This document shows, piece after piece, positions 24,063-44,198 of a stretch of 64,000 nucleotides of DNA. Made by a program: the position numbers and the translations under genes. The notes under the pieces were generated by a model. That model was not told the origin of the DNA. It was given only the letters and a program-made list of their open reading frames with translations, and did no database searches. The stretch is from Peptococcaceae bacterium. Its GTDB lineage: Bacteria; Bacillota; Peptococcia; DRI-13; PHAD01. Positions within the stretch are counted from its first letter, which is position 1; the number at the start of each line of letters is the position of its first letter. The stretch lies in the NCBI GenBank assembly GCA_024655825.1, contig JANLFJ010000015.1, positions 1-64,000 on the forward strand, in the 5' to 3' direction.

Positions 24063-24686
24063 TCATTCAACTATTGTGATTACTTCTTCTATAGGCTTCC
24101 GGCCTCGCGTGGCCGGGACGATTTCCGCCCTGCCGATCGGGACTAAAGCCGCCAGGGAACGTGGACCCGTGACACCCAGAAAAGCTTCCAGCTCTGGCCG
24201 GGCCACGCAGGGACCTGTCATCCAGCAGCTGCCGTATCCTTTTTCCCAGGCTGCCAGGAGCAGGTTCTGGATAACCGCCCCGATGCTCTGCAAATCAGGC
24301 CGCGAACGAAGTTCATCGATTTCTCTGTCGCTGAGGCCGCTTTCTTTCAACATCTGGTCAACCTTGGAGCGGTACGGCCTTGTCGTTACGGCGATAACCA
24401 CCGGGGCCTGCGAAAAAAAAGTCGCCGTCTTTATCACAGGCTTGACCTGTTCCGCCGTCAAACCAACAGCAGCAGCCAATCTCTCCAGGCGGTTCGTAAT
24501 GATTTCGGCCATTTGCTCTTTCTTTTTCTCGTTCGTGATGATCATGAAGTGCCACATCTGCTCATTCCCGGCATTCGGCGCCTCAACGGCCGCGGCAATG
24601 ATCTCCTTGATATCTTCCATGCTCACCGGATCAGGCTTAAACCTGCGGATACTGCGCCTCTGGGTCACAAGTTCCCTGAATTCCAT
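24063..24686 (-). CDS. nitroreductase family FMN-dependent oxidoreductase
   Basis: 207 residues. The N-terminal LVTQRRSIRRFKPDPV binds FMN phosphate, EAPNAGNEQMWHFM follows, and AVIQNLLLAAWEKGYGSCWM is the family helix near 130. These homodimeric enzymes reduce nitro compounds, quinones or other electron acceptors with NAD(P)H. The physiological substrate cannot be told. It is upstream of the thioredoxin-like gene and downstream of ilvE. Confidence 0.9.
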   Translation of the reverse strand: MEFRELVTQRRSIRRFKPDPVSMEDIKEIIAAAVEAPNAGNEQMWHFMIITNEKKKEQMAEIITNRLERLAAAVGLTAEQVKPVIKTATFFSQAPVVIAVTTRPYRSKVDQMLKESGLSDREIDELRSRPDLQSIGAVIQNLLLAAWEKGYGSCWMTGPCVARPELEAFLGVTGPRSLAALVPIGRAEIVPATRGRKPIEEVITIVE

Positions 24687-24708
24687 AAACTGTACTCCCT
24701 TCTAAATA

Positions 24709-25755
24709 TTAATTAATTCTTCCGATTTCACGAACCCAGCCATAAGGGTCTTCGGCCAGCCCGTACTGGATGTCTACCAATCTTTTGTACAGGTTGGCCG
24801 TCACCTCGCCGACCTGCTTATTATTGATCGCATACTCTTTCTCCTTATAGCACAAAAGGCCAACCGGGGAAATTACGGCAGCCGTGCCGGTGCCAAACAT
24901 TTCGGTCAACCTGCCGGAAGCGATGCTTTCCAGAACCTCGTCGATGGTAATCAGCCTTTCCTCCACCCGGTAACCAAGGTCCGGAGACATCTTGAGCACA
25001 GAATCCCTGGTTATTCCCGGGAGGATGGACCCGGTTAAGGGCGGCGTAACAAGCACCCCGTCGATCACAAAAAACACGTTGGATGAGCCGACCTCTTCAA
25101 CATAGCGGTTCTCCTTGGCATCAAGGTAAAGCACCTGGGCAAAGCCTTTTTCCTGGGCTTTCATCCCCGCCAGCAGGCTCGCGCCGTAGTTGCCGCCCGT
25201 TTTCACATCGCCCACCCCTCCGACCGAGGCCCGGACAAGCCTGTCTTCGACGTAAATGCCGATAGGGTTAAACCCTTCCTTGTAATAAGGGCCTACAGGC
25301 GAAAGAATGATGTAAAACAGGTATTCCTTGGCTGGTTTTACGCCCAGGAAGGCCTCCACTCCCAGCATGGTGGGGCGAATGTACAGAGAGGTGCCGGGGT
25401 CCCCTGGAATCCAGTGCTTTTCTTTTATTACCAGTTCCGAAAGAGCCCGCAGGAATTCTTCCTCCGGTATTTCCGGCATATACAGGCGCCGCGCCGAACG
25501 GTTCATCCGGCGCGCGTTTTCTTCCGGGCGGAACAGGAGAATACGCCCGTCTTTGGAAAGGTAGGCTTTCAACCCCTCAAATATTTCCTGAGAATAATGG
25601 AGCACGCAGGCGGCAGGGTCCAGCATTAATGGCTCATACTTCTTGATCTCCCTGTCGTGCCATCCTTTTCCTTCGCTGTATTTCATGACAAACATGTAGT
25701 CGGTGTAATACTTGCCGAAACCAAGTTTTGAGGTGTCATCGTACGGCGGTCTCAC
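24709..25755 (-). CDS. ilvE: branched-chain amino acid aminotransferase
   Basis: 348 residues, fold type IV PLP enzyme of the longer (BCAT II) group. Signature stretches: LHYSQEIFEGLKAY, RPEENARRMNRSARRLYMP, the PLP Lys in GDVKTGGNYGASL, EVGSSNVFFV and GSILPGITRDSVL, all in order. It makes leucine, isoleucine and valine from their keto acids, or runs backwards in degradation. GTG start with GGAGGAG upstream. A short AT-rich gap separates it from the UbiX-like gene. Confidence 0.95.
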   Translation of the reverse strand: MRPPYDDTSKLGFGKYYTDYMFVMKYSEGKGWHDREIKKYEPLMLDPAACVLHYSQEIFEGLKAYLSKDGRILLFRPEENARRMNRSARRLYMPEIPEEEFLRALSELVIKEKHWIPGDPGTSLYIRPTMLGVEAFLGVKPAKEYLFYIILSPVGPYYKEGFNPIGIYVEDRLVRASVGGVGDVKTGGNYGASLLAGMKAQEKGFAQVLYLDAKENRYVEEVGSSNVFFVIDGVLVTPPLTGSILPGITRDSVLKMSPDLGYRVEERLITIDEVLESIASGRLTEMFGTGTAAVISPVGLLCYKEKEYAINNKQVGEVTANLYKRLVDIQYGLAEDPYGWVREIGRIN

Positions 25756-29591: not shown

Positions 29592-29607
29592 TGCAAAGAC
29601 CGTGCCG
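29592..29607 (-). promoter_or_regulatory. sigma-54 promoter of the CoA-transferase/thiolase operon
   Basis: On the minus strand CGGCAC, five bases, TTGCA: a near-consensus -24/-12 element (TGGCAC-N5-TTGCA). Transcription should start near 29580, about 70 bases before the subunit A start. Two sigma-54 activator genes lie directly upstream. Confidence 0.8.
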
Positions 29608-29680: not shown

Positions 29681-29796
29681 GATACGCATTCGCATCGCAA
29701 GCGCGGTTAAACAATAGATTTCCGTCCTTTTTAACTAACCTCAATGGATATATGCACATGATGCATTATTGTATCGCTATGATGCGCCATTGCATC
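29681..29796 (-). promoter_or_regulatory. three 16-bp inverted-repeat activator sites
   Basis: GATAC-N6-GCATC at 29681-29696, GATGC-N6-GTATC at 29760-29775 and GATGC-N6-GCATC at 29781-29796 share the pattern GATRC-N6-GYATC. The last two are 21 bp apart, two helical turns. They lie about 75-190 bp upstream of the sigma-54 promoter, the normal place for enhancer binding; the last touches the activator gene's stop codon. Confidence 0.65.
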
Positions 29797-31891
29797 AATC
29801 GGCGGTTTTCAGGCCGTACTTCCTGGCTTTTCTCACAACTGTCGGCTGGCTTATGCCCAGCAAAGACGCCGCCTTGCGCGTGCTGCCCTGGCTTTCCAGG
29901 GCCTTGGCGATCAGTTCCCTCTCCACCCTGGCCACGGCTTCTTCCAGCAGCATCTGTTTATCCCCGCCGGCAGCAGGTGTTTCCCTCTCTCTTTTTTCCG
30001 TCAAGCTCTTCAAGTGGTCCCTGGTAATGACATCATCATTGATGATTACCACTACCCGCTCCAGGAGGTTCCTCAGCTCGCGCACGTTTCCCGGCCAATC
30101 ATACCTGGAAAGCGTCTCCAGGGCGGAATGATCCAGCTGCTTTTTCCTGTTGTATTTGCTGTTGTAAAAGTCCAGGTAATGCTTGGCCAGAAGGGTGATA
30201 TCCTCCCGCCTTTCCCTGAGCGGCGGGATATAAATGGGAATGACATTCAACCGGTAATACAGGTCCTCCCTGAATTTCCCTTTCTTCACCAGTTCCGCAA
30301 GGTTTTGGTTGGTGGCGGCGATGATCCGCAGGTCCAGCTTCTGCGGCCTTGTCCCCCCAATCCTCGTAATCTCTTTTTCCTGGATCACCCGCAGCAGCTT
30401 TGCCTGCAGGCTTAAAGGCAGGTCGCCAACTTCATCCAGCAAAATAGTGCCTGTATCGGCAAGTTCAAACATGCCCGGCTTGCCCCTGTTCTGCGCGCCG
30501 GTGAAGGCCCCTTTCTCGTAGCCGAACAGCTCGGACTCCAGCAGGCTTTCAGGTATAGCCGCGCAGTTGACTTTGATAAACGGCCCGTCCTTTCGCGGGC
30601 TTTCTTTATGGATCCACAGGGCAATGACGTCCTTGCCCACCCCCGTCTCTCCCAGCAGCAATACATTGGCATCGACCTGCGAGGCCCTGTAAGCGAGTTC
30701 CATGACCAGCTTGATTTCCCTGCTTTGTCCTATAACTTCCGATTTTTCCAGCTGCTGCTGCCGCAAGTGGGCCAGCTCCAGGTGGTATTTTCTCGTCAGC
30801 TCTTCCGTTTTTTCCAGCTTTTCCTTCAGGTTAATCAATTCCGTAATGTCCCTGACCGTCGTCACCACGCAAATGATTTCGCCGTTCTCGTTAAAAATGG
30901 GGTTCCCGGTGATCAGGCACCTCTTGCTCCCTTTGATGGTGTGCATGATGGTCACAGGCTCTTTCTTCTCCAGGACGATGAGCGTCACCGACTGGGAGTA
31001 GTAGCCCTTTTCCACCAGGTCTTTCATGTGCCAGCCGATCACCTCTTCAGGCTTGATGCCTGTGATCCTGGTATATGATTTGTTGATCCTGGTCGTGTAA
31101 CCTTTGCCGTCCGTAATGTACAGGCCCTCGTAAACCGAGTCGATTATGGCATCAAGCTCCTTGTTCAAGGCCTGGGAAGCCTTCAGTTCGCTGGCAATCG
31201 CTTCCAGATCGGAGATGTCCTGCAAAACGGCGACAGCCCCCGTCACCTTGCCGTCTTTAATTATGGGAGACCTGTTGGTGATAGCCGTCACCGGCCCGAA
31301 CTGGATCTTTTTACTGTAGCGGCACTCCCCGGTGCGCAGCACTTCCAGCAGGCCGCTCTGGGGTATTATGTCCATCACAAACCTGCCCACCGCCTTGCGC
31401 GCTTTAATGCCGGTTATCCTTTCCGCGGCGGGATTCCAGTTCGTTATGATGCCTTGCGAGTCAACGGCGATAATTGCGTTGTACAGCGATTCCAGGATGA
31501 CCTTGAGCTTGTCGTGAGACTGTTCCATATCCCGGTAAAACGTCTCCATCAGGTCCGTGCGCGTGATTATGCCCGTTATTTTGTTTTTCTCATCAACGAC
31601 GGGCATCCTCCCCACCTTCGCCTGGCAGACCTCGTGGAACGGTGTATCCACCCGCGCGGTAATCACTTCTTGTTTCATCAGCTGCTTTACCGGCGTGGTG
31701 TTGGGCAGTCCCCCGGCCACCACGTCCATCAGGTGTCCCTTGGTGAACAGGCCGATCACCCTTCCCTCGTCGTCAACCACCGGCGCCCCGTCAATCATCC
31801 TTTTGCGGAATTCTGCCGCCGCGCGCCCGACAGGGTCCTCGGCCTTGAGACAGAATGGTTGGGGCGTCATGAAATCCCCGGCCTTTTTCAT
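29795..31891 (-). CDS. sigma-54 activator with CBS, PAS, AAA+ and Fis-type HTH domains
   Basis: 698 residues. Two CBS domains (about 5-115: KKAGDFMTPQPFCL and VKQLMKQEVITA), two PAS domains (about 125-350), the AAA+ domain with Walker A GETGVGKDV, the sigma-54 contact loop GAFTGA and LLDEVGDLPL, and a C-terminal HTH (GSTRKAASLLGISQPTVVRK). CBS domains usually bind adenosyl compounds, so activity may respond to energy or CoA state. ATG at 31891 is fixed by AGGGAGGCGAGG upstream. It probably activates the adjacent CoA-transferase/thiolase operon. Confidence 0.9.
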   Translation of the reverse strand: MKKAGDFMTPQPFCLKAEDPVGRAAAEFRKRMIDGAPVVDDEGRVIGLFTKGHLMDVVAGGLPNTTPVKQLMKQEVITARVDTPFHEVCQAKVGRMPVVDEKNKITGIITRTDLMETFYRDMEQSHDKLKVILESLYNAIIAVDSQGIITNWNPAAERITGIKARKAVGRFVMDIIPQSGLLEVLRTGECRYSKKIQFGPVTAITNRSPIIKDGKVTGAVAVLQDISDLEAIASELKASQALNKELDAIIDSVYEGLYITDGKGYTTRINKSYTRITGIKPEEVIGWHMKDLVEKGYYSQSVTLIVLEKKEPVTIMHTIKGSKRCLITGNPIFNENGEIICVVTTVRDITELINLKEKLEKTEELTRKYHLELAHLRQQQLEKSEVIGQSREIKLVMELAYRASQVDANVLLLGETGVGKDVIALWIHKESPRKDGPFIKVNCAAIPESLLESELFGYEKGAFTGAQNRGKPGMFELADTGTILLDEVGDLPLSLQAKLLRVIQEKEITRIGGTRPQKLDLRIIAATNQNLAELVKKGKFREDLYYRLNVIPIYIPPLRERREDITLLAKHYLDFYNSKYNRKKQLDHSALETLSRYDWPGNVRELRNLLERVVVIINDDVITRDHLKSLTEKRERETPAAGGDKQMLLEEAVARVERELIAKALESQGSTRKAASLLGISQPTVVRKARKYGLKTAD

Positions 31892-31914
31892 CGAGCCTCG
31901 CCTCCCTGGCAGGA

Positions 31915-33315
31915 TCATGCCTGTAGATTGTATTTCTTCTTCTTGCGCACCAGGGTGGAAAGGTCGATTCCCAGGGCCCTGGCCGCCTTGCGCATAGAAC
32001 CGCACACCGTTAACGCTCTTTTGATAACCTCGCCTTCCACCCGGCTCTGGATCTCCTTTAAGTCGAACGTATCCAAATCAACGGGCAAAACGCCTGGTTC
32101 CTTTTCCACCGCTTTTTTGATGTGGCTGGGGATACACTTTTCGTCTATTGTCTCCCCGTCTGCCAGAACAATCATCCGTTCCACCAGGTTTTTGAGTTCG
32201 CGCACATTGCCCGGCCAGTCATACCTGGTGAGGGTCTCCAGCGCCTGCGGCGAAATCTTTTTCTGAAAGCCGAACCGGTCATTGTTAACTTCTAAGAAAT
32301 GGAATACCAGGGGAACGATGTCCTCTTTCCGCTCGCGCAGCGGTGGAATATGCACGGGAATCACGTTCAGGCGGTAGAAGAGGTCCTGGCGAAAACGGTT
32401 TTCACGGACCATCTTTTCGAGATCGCTGTTGGTGGCGGCAATGATGCGCGTATCGATGTTGACCGTCCTGGTCCCCCCCAAGCGGTAAACCTGGTTTCTC
32501 TGCAGAACATCAAGGAGTTTAACCTGCGTGGAATGAGGCATGGCGCCGATCTCATCAAGAAAGAGCGTCCCGTCGTTGGCCAGTTCAAACAAGCCTCTTT
32601 TCCCGCCTTTGGCCGCCCCGGTAAAGGCGCCCGGCTCATAACCGAAAAGCTCTGACTCCAGCAGGTTTTCCGGGATCGCGCTGCAGTTGATCTGGATGAA
32701 CGGTCGCGAAGAAGAAGGATCAGCCGCCTCATGGATGTAGCGGGCCAGCACGTCCTTGCCCACCCCGGATTCGCCCTGGATCAGCACAGGCGAAGAAACC
32801 TGGGAGACCCTCAAGGCCAGCCGCCGGATATTCCGCATGGCAGGGCTTTCCACCACAAACCTTCCTGACTTTTGCGACTCCCGGTGCATCTGCCACAACT
32901 GCTGGCGGTATTCCATATTCAGGTCGCTCGTGCTTTTTAATTCCTCCCGCAGCTTGAGCAAATCAGTGATGTCGCGAACATTGGAAAAAACCCTGAGCAG
33001 CCTTCCCTCGTCGTTGAATACGGGGATGCTGGTGACAAGGGCCGAGACGCCGTTATAATAATCAATCACCTTGGTGACCGGCTTTTTTGTCCTGATCACC
33101 TCCGGTGAACAGGCGTCCGGTATTTCATTCTCGGCAACCAGGTCCTGCAGACGGCGTCCCAGTATCTTCTCTCGCTTCAATCCCGATATGCGCAAATAGG
33201 CGTCATTGAAATAAATGGCCGCCCCCTCGCTGTCGGTGATAAAAATCCCGTCATATGAGGAGTCAATTATTTTCATTAATAATTCGTTTTCTTCTTTCAA
33301 AAACCATTTGTCCAC
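31915..33315 (-). CDS. sigma-54 activator with PAS, AAA+ and Fis-type HTH domains
   Basis: 466 residues. One PAS domain (about 10-115, IIDSSYDGIFITDSEG), AAA+ with GESGVGKDVLARYI, GAFTGA in GYEPGAFTGAAKG, FLDEIGAMP, and an HTH (GSMRKAARALGIDLSTLVRK) close to that of the neighbouring activator. GTG at 33315 has AAGGCGGG upstream; an earlier ATG at 33384 would place the start inside the upstream palindrome region. It ends 23 bases before the second activator gene, so both are probably co-transcribed. Confidence 0.88.
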   Translation of the reverse strand: MDKWFLKEENELLMKIIDSSYDGIFITDSEGAAIYFNDAYLRISGLKREKILGRRLQDLVAENEIPDACSPEVIRTKKPVTKVIDYYNGVSALVTSIPVFNDEGRLLRVFSNVRDITDLLKLREELKSTSDLNMEYRQQLWQMHRESQKSGRFVVESPAMRNIRRLALRVSQVSSPVLIQGESGVGKDVLARYIHEAADPSSSRPFIQINCSAIPENLLESELFGYEPGAFTGAAKGGKRGLFELANDGTLFLDEIGAMPHSTQVKLLDVLQRNQVYRLGGTRTVNIDTRIIAATNSDLEKMVRENRFRQDLFYRLNVIPVHIPPLRERKEDIVPLVFHFLEVNNDRFGFQKKISPQALETLTRYDWPGNVRELKNLVERMIVLADGETIDEKCIPSHIKKAVEKEPGVLPVDLDTFDLKEIQSRVEGEVIKRALTVCGSMRKAARALGIDLSTLVRKKKKYNLQA

Positions 33316-33364
33316 GCCATTCCCGCCTTCGCCAGTTGTCCCCGTATGCACAGCCAAAGCGCTT

Positions 33365-33382
33365 GTGTGCATTATTGCATAC
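33365..33382 (+). promoter_or_regulatory. activator-site-like inverted repeat upstream of the second activator gene
   Basis: GTGTGC-ATTATT-GCATAC has the same spacing and the same ATTATT centre as the site at 29760. Extra ATGCA half-sites follow at 33383 and 33394. It sits about 150 bp upstream of the rightward sigma-54 promoter at 33529. Confidence 0.5.
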
Positions 33383-33528
33383 ATGCAGGGCCATATGCAT
33401 CCTGCGTGCGCCGCAATCCTCTTTTATTGTTTTCGCCCTCGCATACGTTTTTCCTTCTGCAGCAAAAAGAAATCCTGAAAAATCCCGTCTGCAGGCGGCC
33501 GCAAGGACGGCACGGTTCTCCGTCATCC

Positions 33529-33544
33529 CGGCACAGTTCTTGCA
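33529..33544 (+). promoter_or_regulatory. sigma-54 promoter pointing right into gene-free DNA
   Basis: CGGCAC, five bases, TTGCA on the plus strand is as good a -24/-12 match as the one before the CoA-transferase operon. No plus-strand gene follows: the next gene, iclR-type, is on the minus strand. The 373-base gap 33316-33688 otherwise holds the activator sites and the iclR-type terminator. Confidence 0.6.
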
Positions 33545-33596
33545 TAATAAATAAGCGCGCCCAATTTCGCGCTCCTGTTATCCAGCACAGGGGAAC

Positions 33597-33654
33597 GGCA
33601 AACGAAAAGACCTGCTCGCCACCCGGCGGGTAAAATCCTCCGGCAGGGCAGGTC
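33597..33654 (-). terminator. terminator after the IclR-type gene
   Basis: On the minus strand GACCTGC pairs with GCAGGTC (inner CCGG/CCGG pairs) and is followed by TTTTCGTTT. It lies about 35 bases past the regulator's stop. Confidence 0.7.
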
Positions 33655-33688
33655 CGGTTTGCCGAGATGCTGATTCATTTTTATCTTC

Positions 33689-34462
33689 TCACCTGTATCC
33701 CAGTTTGATGGAAATACTGCCGGTAGCAGTTTTAACCAGCCGGGCGAATTCTTCAATTTTTTCATCCGTGATCCTGGTTTTAGGCCCGGAAATGCTGATG
33801 GCCGCTATCGCTTCTTTCCGGTGGTTGAATATAGGCGCGGCAATGCAGCGCAGCCCGATCTCTATTTCTTCGTCGTCTATGCTGTATCCTTTTTCCCTTA
33901 TTGCTTCCAAAGATTTTGCCAGCTCCCCGGGATCGGTAATCGTTTTTTCCGTGAACCTGCCCAAGCCCCTTGCCAGCACTTCCCGGTACAGATTTTCCGG
34001 GAAATAGGCCAAAAGCGCCTTGCCGACGCCCGTGCAATGAAGGTTGACGCTCCTGCCGACCTGGGAAATAATGTTGATTGCGCTTGGTCCTTCAACTTTT
34101 TCGATATAAACGGCCTCCGCCCGGTTCCGAACAACCAGGTGCACTGTTTCCCTGGTTTTTTCAACCAGATCCTGCAGGTACGGCCTGGCGATCTCTCTCA
34201 GTTCCAGCCCCTCTTCATAGACCTGGCCCAGCTGAAATATCTTTAAACCCAGCCGGTATTTTCCGGTGTCGGGGTTTTGCTCCACATAGCCCCTGTTTTG
34301 CAGCGTCTTTAGCAGCCCAAAACAGGTGTTTTTTTTCAGGCCGAGCCGTTTGGCTATTTCGGTGACTCCCAGCTCTTTTTCTTTGCCGCTGAACTCTTCC
34401 AGGATGTTGAGAGCCCTTTCCACCGATTGAATAGTATGGCCGTTCCTGTGGTTTGATTCCAT
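33689..34462 (-). CDS. IclR family transcriptional regulator
   Basis: 257 residues. The N-terminal winged HTH (VERALNILEEFSGKEKELGVTEIAKRLGL) and the C-terminal IclR effector domain (GLELREIARPYLQDLVEKTRETVHL, CIAAPIFNHRKEAIAAISISG) are complete. Such regulators control aromatic-acid and short-chain acid catabolism and often bind the pathway substrate. It lies 75 bases downstream of the M24-fold gene on the same strand and is the obvious local regulator of the 34.5-43.5 kb operon. Confidence 0.92.
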   Translation of the reverse strand: MESNHRNGHTIQSVERALNILEEFSGKEKELGVTEIAKRLGLKKNTCFGLLKTLQNRGYVEQNPDTGKYRLGLKIFQLGQVYEEGLELREIARPYLQDLVEKTRETVHLVVRNRAEAVYIEKVEGPSAINIISQVGRSVNLHCTGVGKALLAYFPENLYREVLARGLGRFTEKTITDPGELAKSLEAIREKGYSIDDEEIEIGLRCIAAPIFNHRKEAIAAISISGPKTRITDEKIEEFARLVKTATGSISIKLGYR

Positions 34463-34538: not shown

Positions 34539-35686
34539 TATGCCTGTATCAAATCGGCGGGATAGTTTGTCAATACTTCGGCGCCGTCCCCCCTTATCCA
34601 GATGGTGTCGGTAATGCGGGAACCCCCCGCTCCCGGCCTGTAGATTGAAGGCAGGAGTATATCCACGACCATATTGGCTTGTAACGTATAAGAAAAATTC
34701 TTGCCGATCATGGGATAGAATTCGGACTGCCTTAAGCCAATGCCGTGGCCAATGACATCCAGGAAGTCGGCGTCATCAAAGCCCGCTTCATAAATCTCCT
34801 GTCTTGCGGCCCTGTCCACTTCGCTGCACGGCACGCCCGGTTTCATAGCGGCGATTCCCGCACGCTGGGCCTTTTTCAAAACCTCATAAACCATTTTTTG
34901 TTCTTTTGGAACAGCGCCAACTGCCGCGGTCCTGCACATCTTGGCCGTGTAGCCCTGAACCCTTGCCCCGATATGGATAAGCACTATCTCTCCTTCTTTT
35001 ACCGTTTTGCTATCAGAAAAGGGGTGCGTAAGCATGGTTTTTTCGCCTGATACTATTTGTATCCTGAAAGGAGTTCCCTGCGAACCTGATTTCATGGCGG
35101 CATATTCTGCTTCCGCCGCCAGGTCGATTTCCCTCACTCCCGGCCTGATCGCTCTGACGGCAGCTTTCATTCCCGCAATAACGGCCTGTGAGGCTTTTTT
35201 GATCTTGTCAATTTCCTCGCAGTCCTTGACGGCCCGCAGCTTATAGATTATCCCGGATGCGTTGCAAAACTTCCCGGCATCAAAATGTTTTCTTAGCGTG
35301 TCGAACACGGCGAACCCGACAAAATATCGTTCAAATCCGATAACCGGGTTTGTATAGCCGAACTCCTTTATGATTTCAATAATAGAACCAGCCAGGGTTT
35401 CAGCAGGGAAACGGTAGCCCCTGACTTTTTCCAGGGCGCAGTTGGCCCGCACCCACGGAACGTCCAGGGAGAGCGTCGTGCCTTGCGGGGTTCCTTCCCG
35501 GGGAACGACCACAGCCATACACTCCACCTGCTCTATCCCGCCGAAATACAGGAGGTTTTCCCGGTCAACCAGCAGGCAGACATCTATCCCCTCCGCCCGC
35601 ATTGCTGACTGCAGCTTTTCCATCCTCTTTTTAAACGCCGTTTTATTCACCCCAACTCCCCCTTTAACCTCTTTAGTCTCATTCAT
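34538..35686 (-). CDS. M24 (pita-bread) fold protein without metal ligands, creatinase-like
   Basis: 382 residues with an N-terminal creatinase domain (about 15-150) and a C-terminal pita-bread domain. In metallopeptidases the ligands are two Asp, one His and two Glu. Here the first Asp region reads LIHIGARVQGYTAKMCRT (no Asp), the His remains in GHGIG, the EP motif reads VVDILLPSIY, and the last Glu is Thr in GSRITDTIWI. It is therefore unlikely to be an aminopeptidase. Creatinase and DMSP-lyase-like members of this fold work without that metal site. It overlaps the aldolase gene by ATGA; GTG at 35650 is an alternative start. Confidence 0.75.
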   Translation of the reverse strand: MNETKEVKGGVGVNKTAFKKRMEKLQSAMRAEGIDVCLLVDRENLLYFGGIEQVECMAVVVPREGTPQGTTLSLDVPWVRANCALEKVRGYRFPAETLAGSIIEIIKEFGYTNPVIGFERYFVGFAVFDTLRKHFDAGKFCNASGIIYKLRAVKDCEEIDKIKKASQAVIAGMKAAVRAIRPGVREIDLAAEAEYAAMKSGSQGTPFRIQIVSGEKTMLTHPFSDSKTVKEGEIVLIHIGARVQGYTAKMCRTAAVGAVPKEQKMVYEVLKKAQRAGIAAMKPGVPCSEVDRAARQEIYEAGFDDADFLDVIGHGIGLRQSEFYPMIGKNFSYTLQANMVVDILLPSIYRPGAGGSRITDTIWIRGDGAEVLTNYPADLIQA

Positions 35687-36690
35687 CCCGCCGTTTTGCG
35701 GCTCAATTCATAGGCCACCTCGATGATCAGGTCTTCCTGCCCGCCCACTGTTTTTCTTTTTCCCAGTTCCACCAGTACGTCCCGGGGGTCTACCTTGAAT
35801 TTTTCTGCCGCGCGCAGCGTATGAAGCAGGAAACTGCCGTACACGCCAGCCCAGCCCAGGGTCAAAGCGGCCCTGTCGATCGACTGGGGCCTGTGCATGA
35901 GGGGTCCAACCACCTCTTCGGCGGCATCCATGATCTTGTAGAGGTTTATTCCTGTTTCCACTTTTATTTTATCGAAAACCGCCGCGAGCACTTCCGTTTG
36001 GGCGTTGCCGGCCCCGGCCCCCAGTCCTTTCAACGTTCCGTCGATGAAGGAAGCGCCCGCTTCGTATGCGGCCAGGGAGTTGCCTATGGCCAGTCCCAGG
36101 TTGTTGTGGGCGTGATAGCCCACCGGAACCTGCACCGCGCTCCTCACGGCCTCGACGCGGCGCGCCACGTCCTGTGGAACCATAGCTCCGGCGGAATCGG
36201 TTATATACACGGCGTCGGCGCCGTAGCTTTCAAAAAGCTTGGCCTGTTCAACCACCTTTTCCACCGGCGCCATGTGCGCCATCATTAAAAAACCGATGGC
36301 TTCCAGGCCGAAGGACTTGGCCATCTTGATATGCTGCTCCCCGATATCCGCCTCGGTAACGTGCGTGGCCACGCGCACGACCTTCGCCCCATGCTTGACC
36401 GCCACTTCCAGGTCTTTTTTAGTCCCGATGCCGGGTATAAGCAGCACGTCCATTTTTGCCTTTTTCAAGACCGAAGAAACAGCTTTCAAGTAATCTTCGT
36501 CCGTCGCCTTGGAGAAACCGTACTGGAACGATGCTCCTCCCAGCCCGTCCCCGTGTCCCACTTCCACGGTATCGACGCCCGCGGAATCCAGGGTCTGGGC
36601 GATGGCCGCCATGTCCTCCGGCGACAACTGGTGGCTGACAGCGTGCATTCCATCCCTCAACGTGGTATCAAAAATCCTGACCTTTTTCAT
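35683..36690 (-). CDS. 4-hydroxy-2-oxovalerate aldolase
   Basis: 335 residues, DmpG/BphI/MhpE type. [18 protein letters not shown] carries the catalytic Arg-Asp and a metal-binding Asp, [17 protein letters not shown] follows, the metal-binding His pair is in [11 protein letters not shown], and the C-terminal communication domain is present. It splits 4-hydroxy-2-oxovalerate to pyruvate and acetaldehyde, which is channelled to the partner dehydrogenase. The two genes overlap by four bases. Normally it ends an aerobic meta-cleavage pathway; no oxygenase is nearby. Confidence 0.95.
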
Positions 36691-37595
36691 TGAACGACCC
36701 TCCTTTCCCCGGAACCGCCGGTCTCTTTCGCCAGCAGGCTTGCGGCAATCCTTTCCCCGACGCCCAGGGCGGCAGCCGTAATTATATCAAGATTGCCGGC
36801 ATACCGGGGCAAATACAGGCCCTCGCCTTCCACCTCGATCATCACCGTCACCTTGTCCCCATCCAGCAGGGGAGGCAGTTTCATGGTATATCCCGGTACG
36901 TATTCTTTCACCTTTTCCACCATCTGCGCGACGCTGCGCGCGACAGCCTTCTCGTCGGGACTGGTTACACGGCAGTATATGGTGTTTCTCATCATTATGG
37001 GAGGTTCAGCCGGATTCAAAATAATGATCGCTTTGGCCCTCCTGGCTCCGCCAACCTTTACCAGGCTATCCGCCGTGGTCTGGGTGAACTCGTCTATGTT
37101 TTGCCGTGTTCCCGGTCCTGCGCTCCGGCTGGAGATGGTGGCCACGATTTCGGCGTATTCCACCCCGCAGGCCGCGTTTACAGCGGCCACAATAGGTACT
37201 GTGGCCTGCCCCCCGCAGGTCACCAGGTTCACGTTGACGCTCTCGATGTTGTCCTGCATATTGACAGCCGGGACAAGATACGGCCCAACCGCCGCCGGGG
37301 TCAGGTCGACTGCTGTTTTGCCGTGCTGCATAAGAAGCGGCGCATGTTTCAAATGGGCCTTGGCGCTGGTGCAATCAAAGACTATTTTTATTTCCTCGTC
37401 TCGCAAAATCGGCTCAATGCCCCCGGTGGAGGTCTTAAGTCCTAGCTGCGCCGCCAGTTTCAAACCTTCCGAATCCCCATAAATGCCTGATACCATCTCC
37501 AGCTCAATACTCCTGGCCCTGTTGACAATCTTAAACATCAGGTCCGTCCCGATGTTTCCGGGCCCCAGGATGGCGGCTTTTATCTTTTTCTTCAT
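36687..37595 (-). CDS. acetaldehyde dehydrogenase (acylating)
   Basis: 302 residues, DmpF/BphJ/MhpF type. The NAD-binding start is [18 protein letters not shown], the catalytic Cys lies in [17 protein letters not shown], and [10 protein letters not shown] and the C-terminal [14 protein letters not shown] are typical. It turns acetaldehyde, CoA and NAD+ into acetyl-CoA and forms a channelling complex with the aldolase. Confidence 0.95.
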
Positions 37596-37613
37596 GTTCG
37601 TATCCTCCCCGCA

Positions 37614-38405
37614 TCAATCACTGAATAAAACTTTTACACTCCCCAACCCGCCGAAAGCAGCGATAAACAGGTCGCCCGCCCTGACCTCCAGGGCTTTGGT
37701 CAAGGAACCGGAGAGAATTATTTCTCCTTTTTTCAGAGGAACCCCCATCGTGCCCAGCTTATTGGCCAGCCAGGCCACGGCCAAAGCCGGGTGCCCCATA
37801 ACCGCCGCGCCGGCCGCCGTCTCCACGATAATCCCGTTTTTTTCCAGCACAAGTCCCACATGTTTCAAATTGACCCTGTCCACCGGCACTAGCTGCGAAC
37901 CCAGTACAATACCGGCGCTGGAAGCATTGTCCGCAATGGTGTCCTGTATTTTGATCTTCCAGTCCTTAATCCTGCTGTCGATAACCTCGAAGGCGGGAAT
38001 TACTCCTTCCGTGGCCCTGAGAACGTCGGTTAAGGTTATGCCGGGACCCTGCAAATCCTCGCCCAGCACGAAAGCTATTTCCGCCTCGACCTTGGGCTGG
38101 AGCAAGGTTCCGGTGCTGACCGGCGCCTCCTCGTCCCAGACCATGCTGTCAAAAAGGTGCCCGTAGTCCGGTTCTCCTACCCCCAAAAACTGCTGCATGG
38201 CTTTGCTGGTCAGGCCGATCTTTTTTCCGACAATCCTCTTTCCTTCCCCAACCGCCATTTCAACGTTTTCCAGCTGTATCCTGTACGCTTCTTCGATTGA
38301 CAGGTCCGGTTTTCTTTCCGTCAGGGCCGGAATGGGCTGTTTCTCCTTCGCCGCCTGCCTTAATTCGGCTGCCAGGCGGCTGATCTCTTCACTTGTCACC
38401 CGCAA
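37614..38405 (-). CDS. 2-oxopent-4-enoate hydratase / 4-oxalocrotonate decarboxylase family protein
   Basis: 263 residues. KIGLTSKAMQQFLGVGEPDYG, PKVEAEIAFVLGEDL (metal-binding Glu pair), AFEVIDSRIKDWK and MGHPALAVAWLANKLG are family motifs. The hydratase adds water to 2-hydroxypenta-2,4-dienoate to make 4-hydroxy-2-oxovalerate, the aldolase substrate; the decarboxylase is a close homologue and cannot be excluded. It lies 18 bases before the dehydrogenase gene. Confidence 0.9.
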   Translation of the reverse strand: MRVTSEEISRLAAELRQAAKEKQPIPALTERKPDLSIEEAYRIQLENVEMAVGEGKRIVGKKIGLTSKAMQQFLGVGEPDYGHLFDSMVWDEEAPVSTGTLLQPKVEAEIAFVLGEDLQGPGITLTDVLRATEGVIPAFEVIDSRIKDWKIKIQDTIADNASSAGIVLGSQLVPVDRVNLKHVGLVLEKNGIIVETAAGAAVMGHPALAVAWLANKLGTMGVPLKKGEIILSGSLTKALEVRAGDLFIAAFGGLGSVKVLFSD

Positions 38406-43736: not shown

Positions 43737-44159
43737 TTATTCGCTTCGATTGCCGGTGATTTCCTTTACTCTCTGGACAGTGGCCTTGATCAATTCCGCC
43801 ATGGTGGGCTGCGCTTGCAGCCCCACAATTTCCAAATTTTTGTGGTTGACGGGCACCAGCACCTTGGGCACGGGAGCGCCGCTTATCAGCGCGGCTATTT
43901 CGGCCGTTATCTCTCCCAGCATGGAATCGGCAATGATAATCCCGATCGGTCCCACAACGCACGCCGCGTTTCGCAGGCAAACCCTAACGGCGTTGGCCCC
44001 TGTCGCTCCTTTGTTCGCGCCCGCCTTGACCATATTGGTGGTGGCCACGGAATTGGTGCCCACCGCGATGATTTCCCTGTCCGGCATCTGCTGGCGCAGC
44101 TGCATGACAATCTGGGCGCCCAGTCCCCCGCCCATGCCGTCAATCACTAAAATGCTCAT
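43737..44159 (-). CDS. DUF3842 family protein
   Basis: About 140 residues. MSILVIDGMGGGLGAQIV is a Rossmann-like start with a Gly-rich loop, followed by EIIAVGTNSVATTNMVKAGA and VVGPIGIIIADSMLGEITAE, as in DUF3842, a Firmicute family of unknown function. ATG at 44159 is favoured (GGGGTGA upstream); GTG at 44168 is possible. It lies 39 bases after a radical SAM gene. Confidence 0.85.
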   Translation of the reverse strand: MSILVIDGMGGGLGAQIVMQLRQQMPDREIIAVGTNSVATTNMVKAGANKGATGANAVRVCLRNAACVVGPIGIIIADSMLGEITAEIAALISGAPVPKVLVPVNHKNLEIVGLQAQPTMAELIKATVQRVKEITGNRSE

Positions 44160-44198
44160 CCTATTCACCCCATCATATTTGCATAAAAAGAACGCGCA

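Follow-up and report, generated by a model that had tools for sequence, protein, structure and literature searches.

What does a near-consensus sigma-54 promoter control when no gene appears to lie behind it? The question is raised by one locus in the 64-kb stretch of DNA analysed here (the window). The original prediction had described a -24/-12 element there, with an activator-like repeat upstream and only gene-free DNA and an opposite-strand gene downstream, and had suggested that it either drives a small RNA or is the relic of a deleted operon. We propose that the locus is probably a dedicated sigma-54 unit leading from a promoter to a folded RNA, which in this genome would be either a stand-alone RNA or a leftover leader. 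The features of the unit are collected in Table 1.

Table 1 Positions of the features of the proposed sigma-54 unit, in window coordinates
Feature	Position	Strand	Basis or remark
Sigma-54 activator (enhancer-binding protein), PAS + AAA+ + Fis-type HTH, ~465 aa	31915-33312	-	Pfam
Putative upstream activator site TGTGTGCATTATTGCATACA, inverted repeat	33364-33383		starts 166 bp before the -24 GG; best genome match
Sigma-54 -24/-12 promoter CGGCACAGTTCTTGCA	33529-33544	+	letters; genome-wide pattern count; divergent sites beside relatives' activators
Terminator-like hairpin for leftward (IclR-side) transcription	33553-33574	-	overlaps predicted RNA start
Predicted transcription start	33555-33557	+	~12 bases after the -12 GC; from standard sigma-54 geometry
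Structured RNA	33573-33664	+	covariance search; ~17 bases after predicted start
RNA helix P1 hairpin (UCCUGU...ACAGGG)	33573-33592	+	fold; comparison
RNA helix P2, 5' arm CGGCAAAC	33596-33603	+	covariance model without the window, E = 2.7e-5
P2/P3 internal loop, 5-base side GAAAA	33604-33608	+	opposite side CG at 33655-33656
RNA helix P3, 5' arm GACCUGCUC	33609-33617	+	9 pairs
RNA helix P3, 3' arm GGGCAGGUC	33646-33654	+	four-member pairing; model without the window
RNA helix P2, 3' arm GUUUGCCG	33657-33664	+	four-member pairing; model without the window
13-codon frame MLIHFYLLTCIPV	33667-33708	+	right after RNA; remnant of small frame, or chance
IclR-family regulator, 3' end facing RNA	33689-34462	-	IclR_C, 3.2e-52

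The near-consensus promoter of the original prediction has the exact GG-N10-GC spacing and a single mismatch to TGGCAC-N5-TTGCW. Its letters alone are weak evidence, because two-mismatch sigma-54-like sites are no more frequent in the window than chance predicts (18 found, 33.6 expected), an observation that would also suit a chance match in gene-free DNA. Over the whole genome the strict pattern GGCAC-N5-TTGCW has 21 exact matches and its reversal has 7, and at most of these 21 sites a same-strand frame of at least 90 codons begins shortly downstream. An exception is the site at 33530: the only long frames after it on the plus strand are antisense to the IclR gene, and that gene, on the minus strand, is the next one past the promoter. 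To this extent there is indeed no gene behind the promoter, but a structured RNA comes after it. An RpoN gene is present in the genome (PF04552, E = 1.1e-61, 208 bits), and a candidate activator site starts 166 bp upstream of the near-consensus -24/-12 element. One other exact sigma-54-like match has no long same-strand frame after it (L058 1501–1515; G000:C27:20423–20437); it may sit inside an opposite-strand gene.

Back to back with the promoter lies an activator gene which the original prediction, right about promoter and repeat, had missed together with the conserved layout. Its product matches PAS_9, Sigma54_activat (2e-66), AAA_lid_14, HTH_50 (4.3e-9) and HTH_8 (1.1e-7), so that the AAA+ sigma-54 interaction domain and the Fis-type HTH of an enhancer-binding protein are both present. 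Translation probably starts at the GTG at 33312; the alignment with close relatives begins at residue 2, and the listed ORF start at 33384 would carry the reading frame through the upstream repeat. Within the order, its nearest relatives are found in G004 (65% identity), G010 (54%) and G003 (53%). In each of these three genomes the back-to-back layout is kept, with a sigma-54 site upstream of the activator gene that points away from it, as in the window (L064 11225, minus strand; L065 12151, plus strand; L066 7091, minus strand); the element is therefore conserved in 3/3 closest-relative genomes. Genome G001, from the same family as the source genome, has no close relative of the activator (best 46%), and a scan of the collection with the activator returned two distant relatives and no more.

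The upstream repeat likewise has the geometry claimed for it. Its arms, TGTGTGC and GCATACA around ATTATT, differ at one position from TGTATGC-N6-GCATACA, and it is the nearest match to this motif anywhere in the 3.16-Mb genome. Ahead of the corresponding promoter the motif is perfect in two relatives (L065 12005–12024 and L066 7219–7238, from G003/G010), and it is found with two mismatches in G079 (L082 1834–1853) and with three in G004 (L064 11343–11362). The distance from the start of the repeat to the -24 GG is roughly 137–170 bp across the genomes that carry it. Around 29 more distant activator relatives in the phylum (44–52% identity), no repeat with two or fewer mismatches was found. 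Because the repeat is best-in-genome here and absent around those 29 relatives, it fits the site of a dedicated activator, and we infer that the activator binds it. In a Clostridiales survey, activator sites are reported 100–250 bp upstream of -24/-12 promoters, a range that includes the repeat at -166, and most sigma-54 activators had a single operon as target (PMC6615313). The unit resembles those regulons in its Fis-type HTH activator and its inverted TGT...ACA site at such a distance, but the TGT-ACA spacer is 14 bp here against 10–12 bp in the common Clostridiales type, and the target starts with a structured RNA, not a metabolic gene (PMC6615313).

Comparison between genomes thus establishes the promoter, the repeat and their conservation, and we are highly confident that the conserved control unit of activator, site and promoter is real. 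That the sigma-54 site is a chance match is scarcely credible, since the divergent site and the repeat are conserved in relatives and an RNA family begins at the right distance; the comparison contradicts chance.

Other genes around the unit were also compared. In G003 and G010, branched-chain aminotransferase and nitroreductase-like genes come after the activator gene, and their products resemble those of window positions 24063–25755. These neighbours hint at amino-acid or acyl-CoA metabolism, a hint that does not by itself show regulation. Because a look-alike of the small protein at 43737–44168 on the minus strand (MSILVIDGMGGGLGAQIV...) is encoded beside the divergent promoter in both genomes (L065, L066), a piece of neighbourhood seems to be common to the window and G003/G010 but rearranged. 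A second near-consensus sigma-54 site in the window (29592–29607, minus strand) immediately precedes CoA-transferase/thiolase genes and immediately follows the gene of a CBS-PAS sigma-54 activator (29795–32005), which is the usual layout for such operons. We considered this site as a second target of the PAS activator and rejected it: ATGCAT/TGCATA pieces occur upstream but no full repeat, and the site follows its own activator gene. Positions 35683–38405 of the minus strand encode a 4-hydroxy-2-oxovalerate aldolase, an acetylating acetaldehyde dehydrogenase and a 2-oxopent-4-enoate hydratase-like protein, a lower meta-cleavage pathway, and adjoin QRPTase-like and MoCF-domain genes. Nothing that we found supports the suggestion that the promoter links two metabolic clusters.

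The stretch after the predicted transcription start folds well (z = -3.4). A plain alignment of the window with G004 was equalled by 2/2000 shuffled pairs under one scoring scheme and by 110/2000 under another. Since the alignment was only modest under the second scheme, we built a covariance model from the window and L064 and ran it over 398 genomes of the phylum. It matched L081 (G031; E = 8.6e-8) and L082 (G079; E = 1.1e-7), and a search of the genomes with the resulting four-member model gave no further convincing member. With the window left out and the model based on the three other members, a single match appeared in the 64-kb window, at 33572–33664 on the plus strand (E = 2.7e-5), although this leave-one-out test is not fully independent because the alignment rows came from a fit to the initial model, to which the window had contributed. 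Among the four sequences 95.7% of cells are paired and 7/23 pairs carry double-sided changes, a covariation that rests on the four known members, on a structure first read from the window and L064, and on an alignment fitted to that structure. No shuffle out of 500 reached these values, and sliding the partner by one base lowered pairing to 50% or less. The homologues keep their helices through double-sided changes, as expected of a new structured RNA family, and we consider the family very likely to be real.

Rfam 15 (4227 families) has nothing near its gathering threshold at the RNA in the window, L064, L081 or L082; narK and DUF3800-XI fell far under threshold, narK merely sharing the sigma-54 letters. 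Weak matches of the model in G262 and G259 proved on reading to be terminator-like palindromes (L095, L083). No tRNA or tmRNA lies in the window, the hairpin has no further copies in its own genome that would mark it as a repeated element, and a plain DNA search of the region in relatives gave one uninformative match of 27 bases. In a limited search of the open-access literature we did not find this RNA family or its pairing with a divergent dedicated activator. The RNA and the sigma-54 promoter occur together in two relatives, L064 and L082, the latter with the sigma-54 site GGCATGATTTTTGCT ahead of the RNA. In L081 the RNA and a small frame are present, but no sigma-54 site is seen upstream, the repeat is absent (best, four mismatches) and the 13 kb examined contain no sigma-54 activator. 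In L065 and L066 the model search finds no such RNA after the promoter.

The conserved fold consists of the P1 hairpin followed by a longer P2-P3 stem. P1 is paired in 4/4 members, save the innermost modelled pair in one, and P3 has 100% of its cells paired, with four of its pairs changed on both sides. The asymmetric P2/P3 loop recurs in the three other members, with 4–5 bases opposite GG, and in G004 the transcript is arranged alike (P1 hairpin, GAA linker, P2, asymmetric internal loop, P3). In the window none of the 17 P2 and P3 pairs is broken, though most other positions differ from the relatives. G-U pairs make up seven of the paired cells and would be lost on the opposite strand, and each of the four members has its better fold on the RNA strand, if by a slight margin in the window (-44.4 against -43.5); we therefore assign the RNA to the plus strand, so that comparison establishes the strand as well as the family. 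These observations bear on the reading that the hairpins are the 3' end of a leftward IclR mRNA. The terminator-like hairpin on the minus strand would end such a transcript just beyond them, but the neighbours differ in other genomes, and the G-U pairs and the better folds both point to the plus strand; we give this reading very little credence.

In related genomes a small frame does lie to the right of the RNA or of the promoter. The RNA in G004 (L064) stands ahead of a Shine-Dalgarno sequence and a 59-aa frame, with a strong terminator-like hairpin beyond; in G031 (L081) it stands ahead of a Shine-Dalgarno sequence and a 63-aa frame. The two small proteins have only a C-terminal stretch in common (12/17 identical, E = 2e-7 in a two-sequence comparison), and neither matches a family above cut-off (Pfam and NCBIfam for G004, NCBIfam for G031). 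In G003/G010 the same promoter leads to a different 63-aa frame (L065, L066). The frame after the RNA in G079 (L082) is doubtful as a counterpart: its first part is only weakly similar, and it runs into a fragment resembling the activator's PAS end. This fragment, QVFSNIRGITDLTKPQEPLKNTSEL in the frame after the RNA (L093 8088–8184 onward, minus strand), looks as if an activator gene had decayed there.

A further stem, P0, measures 9–12 bp in L064, L081 and L082, against 4 bp, which is chance level, in the window; the P0 lengths are by themselves not much above those of shuffles. In these relatives the 3' strand of P0 reaches up to or into the Shine-Dalgarno sequence of the small frame. By position and P0, L064 and L081 would have a leader whose structure could cover the Shine-Dalgarno sequence, L082 less clearly so, and the window has no such frame. 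The placement of P0 suggests translation control in the relatives, and we lean, by somewhat more than an even chance, towards the RNA controlling translation of the small frame there.

The window lacks P0, Shine-Dalgarno sequence and small frame alike, and the IclR stop lies 25 bases past the RNA, where the small frame would begin. A small protein might still be made from the 13-codon frame. Its ATGCT start lies two bases after P2, in the same place as the L064 frame, which also starts with ATGCT somewhat further from P2. At 13 codons, with no Shine-Dalgarno sequence and no significant similarity, the frame is not significant alone, and we judge its translation highly unlikely.

Two readings of the locus in this genome deserve about even weight. 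The small gene may have been deleted or displaced as the IclR gene arrived, the promoter and leader being functionless leftovers of the proposed unit. Such a relic, part of the original prediction, is quite conceivable given the missing P0, Shine-Dalgarno sequence and frame, the IclR stop in the frame's place and the lack of a good plus-strand terminator near the RNA. It fits less well with an intact activator, best-in-genome repeat, promoter and P1-P3, including every P2/P3 pair, although a recent loss could look alike, and dating a loss is hampered by the want of a close activator relative in G001. The transcript may instead be a stand-alone small RNA that acts by base pairing or protein binding and runs towards the IclR 3' end, as was also predicted. 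A structured RNA does begin behind the promoter, and a dedicated activator with an intact folded RNA and no frame would suit this possibility, for which sigma-54- and activator-driven small RNAs give precedent (PMC8657755). The RNA precedes a frame in other members, as a leader, and a simple scan found no convincing plus-strand terminator near 33664, such as a small RNA of defined length would require, which somewhat lowers the probability of such an RNA; the possibility stays a tentative one.

Taken as a whole, the proposed unit would work as follows. The PAS-domain activator would bind the repeat that precedes its gene and, through looping of the DNA, fire the back-to-back promoter at 33529. 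The transcript, predicted from standard promoter geometry to begin near 33556, would carry P1 and the P2-P3 stem with its asymmetric internal loop as its conserved body. In relatives, P0 would close P1 and P2-P3 into a three-way junction before the Shine-Dalgarno sequence, and the RNA would most likely be a leader controlling translation of the small frame. In this genome P0, Shine-Dalgarno sequence and frame would have gone from an otherwise intact unit, leaving either a stand-alone small RNA or the leader that outlasted its small gene. Both the activity of the promoter and the function of the RNA here are conjectured from sequence.

There is precedent both for structured leaders and for small RNAs driven by sigma-54 with an activator (CrcZ/CrcY, Qrr). 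CrcZ and CrcY of Pseudomonas and Azotobacter are non-coding RNAs transcribed from RpoN-dependent promoters under the activator CbrB (PMC8657755). The proposed unit is like the CbrB-RpoN-CrcZ/CrcY system in that a sigma-54 activator would have as its target a non-coding RNA from an RpoN-dependent promoter. However, CrcZ titrates the Crc/Hfq repressor, whereas the present RNA has no match in Rfam and stands ahead of a small frame in relatives, and the activator of the unit carries a PAS domain and is not a response regulator.

In Vibrio, the small RNA gene qrr1 and the gene for its sigma-54 activator, LuxO, lie back to back, and Qrr RNAs pair with mRNAs through Hfq. LuxO-Qrr1 shares the back-to-back layout with the proposed unit, but organism and RNA are unrelated. 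As in riboswitches and other structured leaders, the predicted three-way junction of the relatives immediately precedes a frame's Shine-Dalgarno sequence. Unlike riboswitches, the RNA has no match among the 4227 Rfam families, and its frame encodes a tiny protein without known family and is missing in the window.

The most far-reaching reading is that of a new RNA family, possibly a translation-switching sensor, under a dedicated activator whose PAS domain would detect a signal. The small gene would then be gated twice, once in transcription and once in translation, and here the RNA would have been kept without the gene, working alone. We regard this full reading as unlikely. Already at the strength of the proposed unit, what looked like an orphan promoter becomes a testable unit with named parts: activator, binding site, promoter and RNA. 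The candidate RNA family lies outside Rfam and is common to different classes of one phylum, and a search for its ligand, protein partner or target has become possible. The locus also suggests that other 'orphan' sigma-54 promoters beside activator genes may be worth searching for structured RNAs and tiny frames before they are labelled relics.
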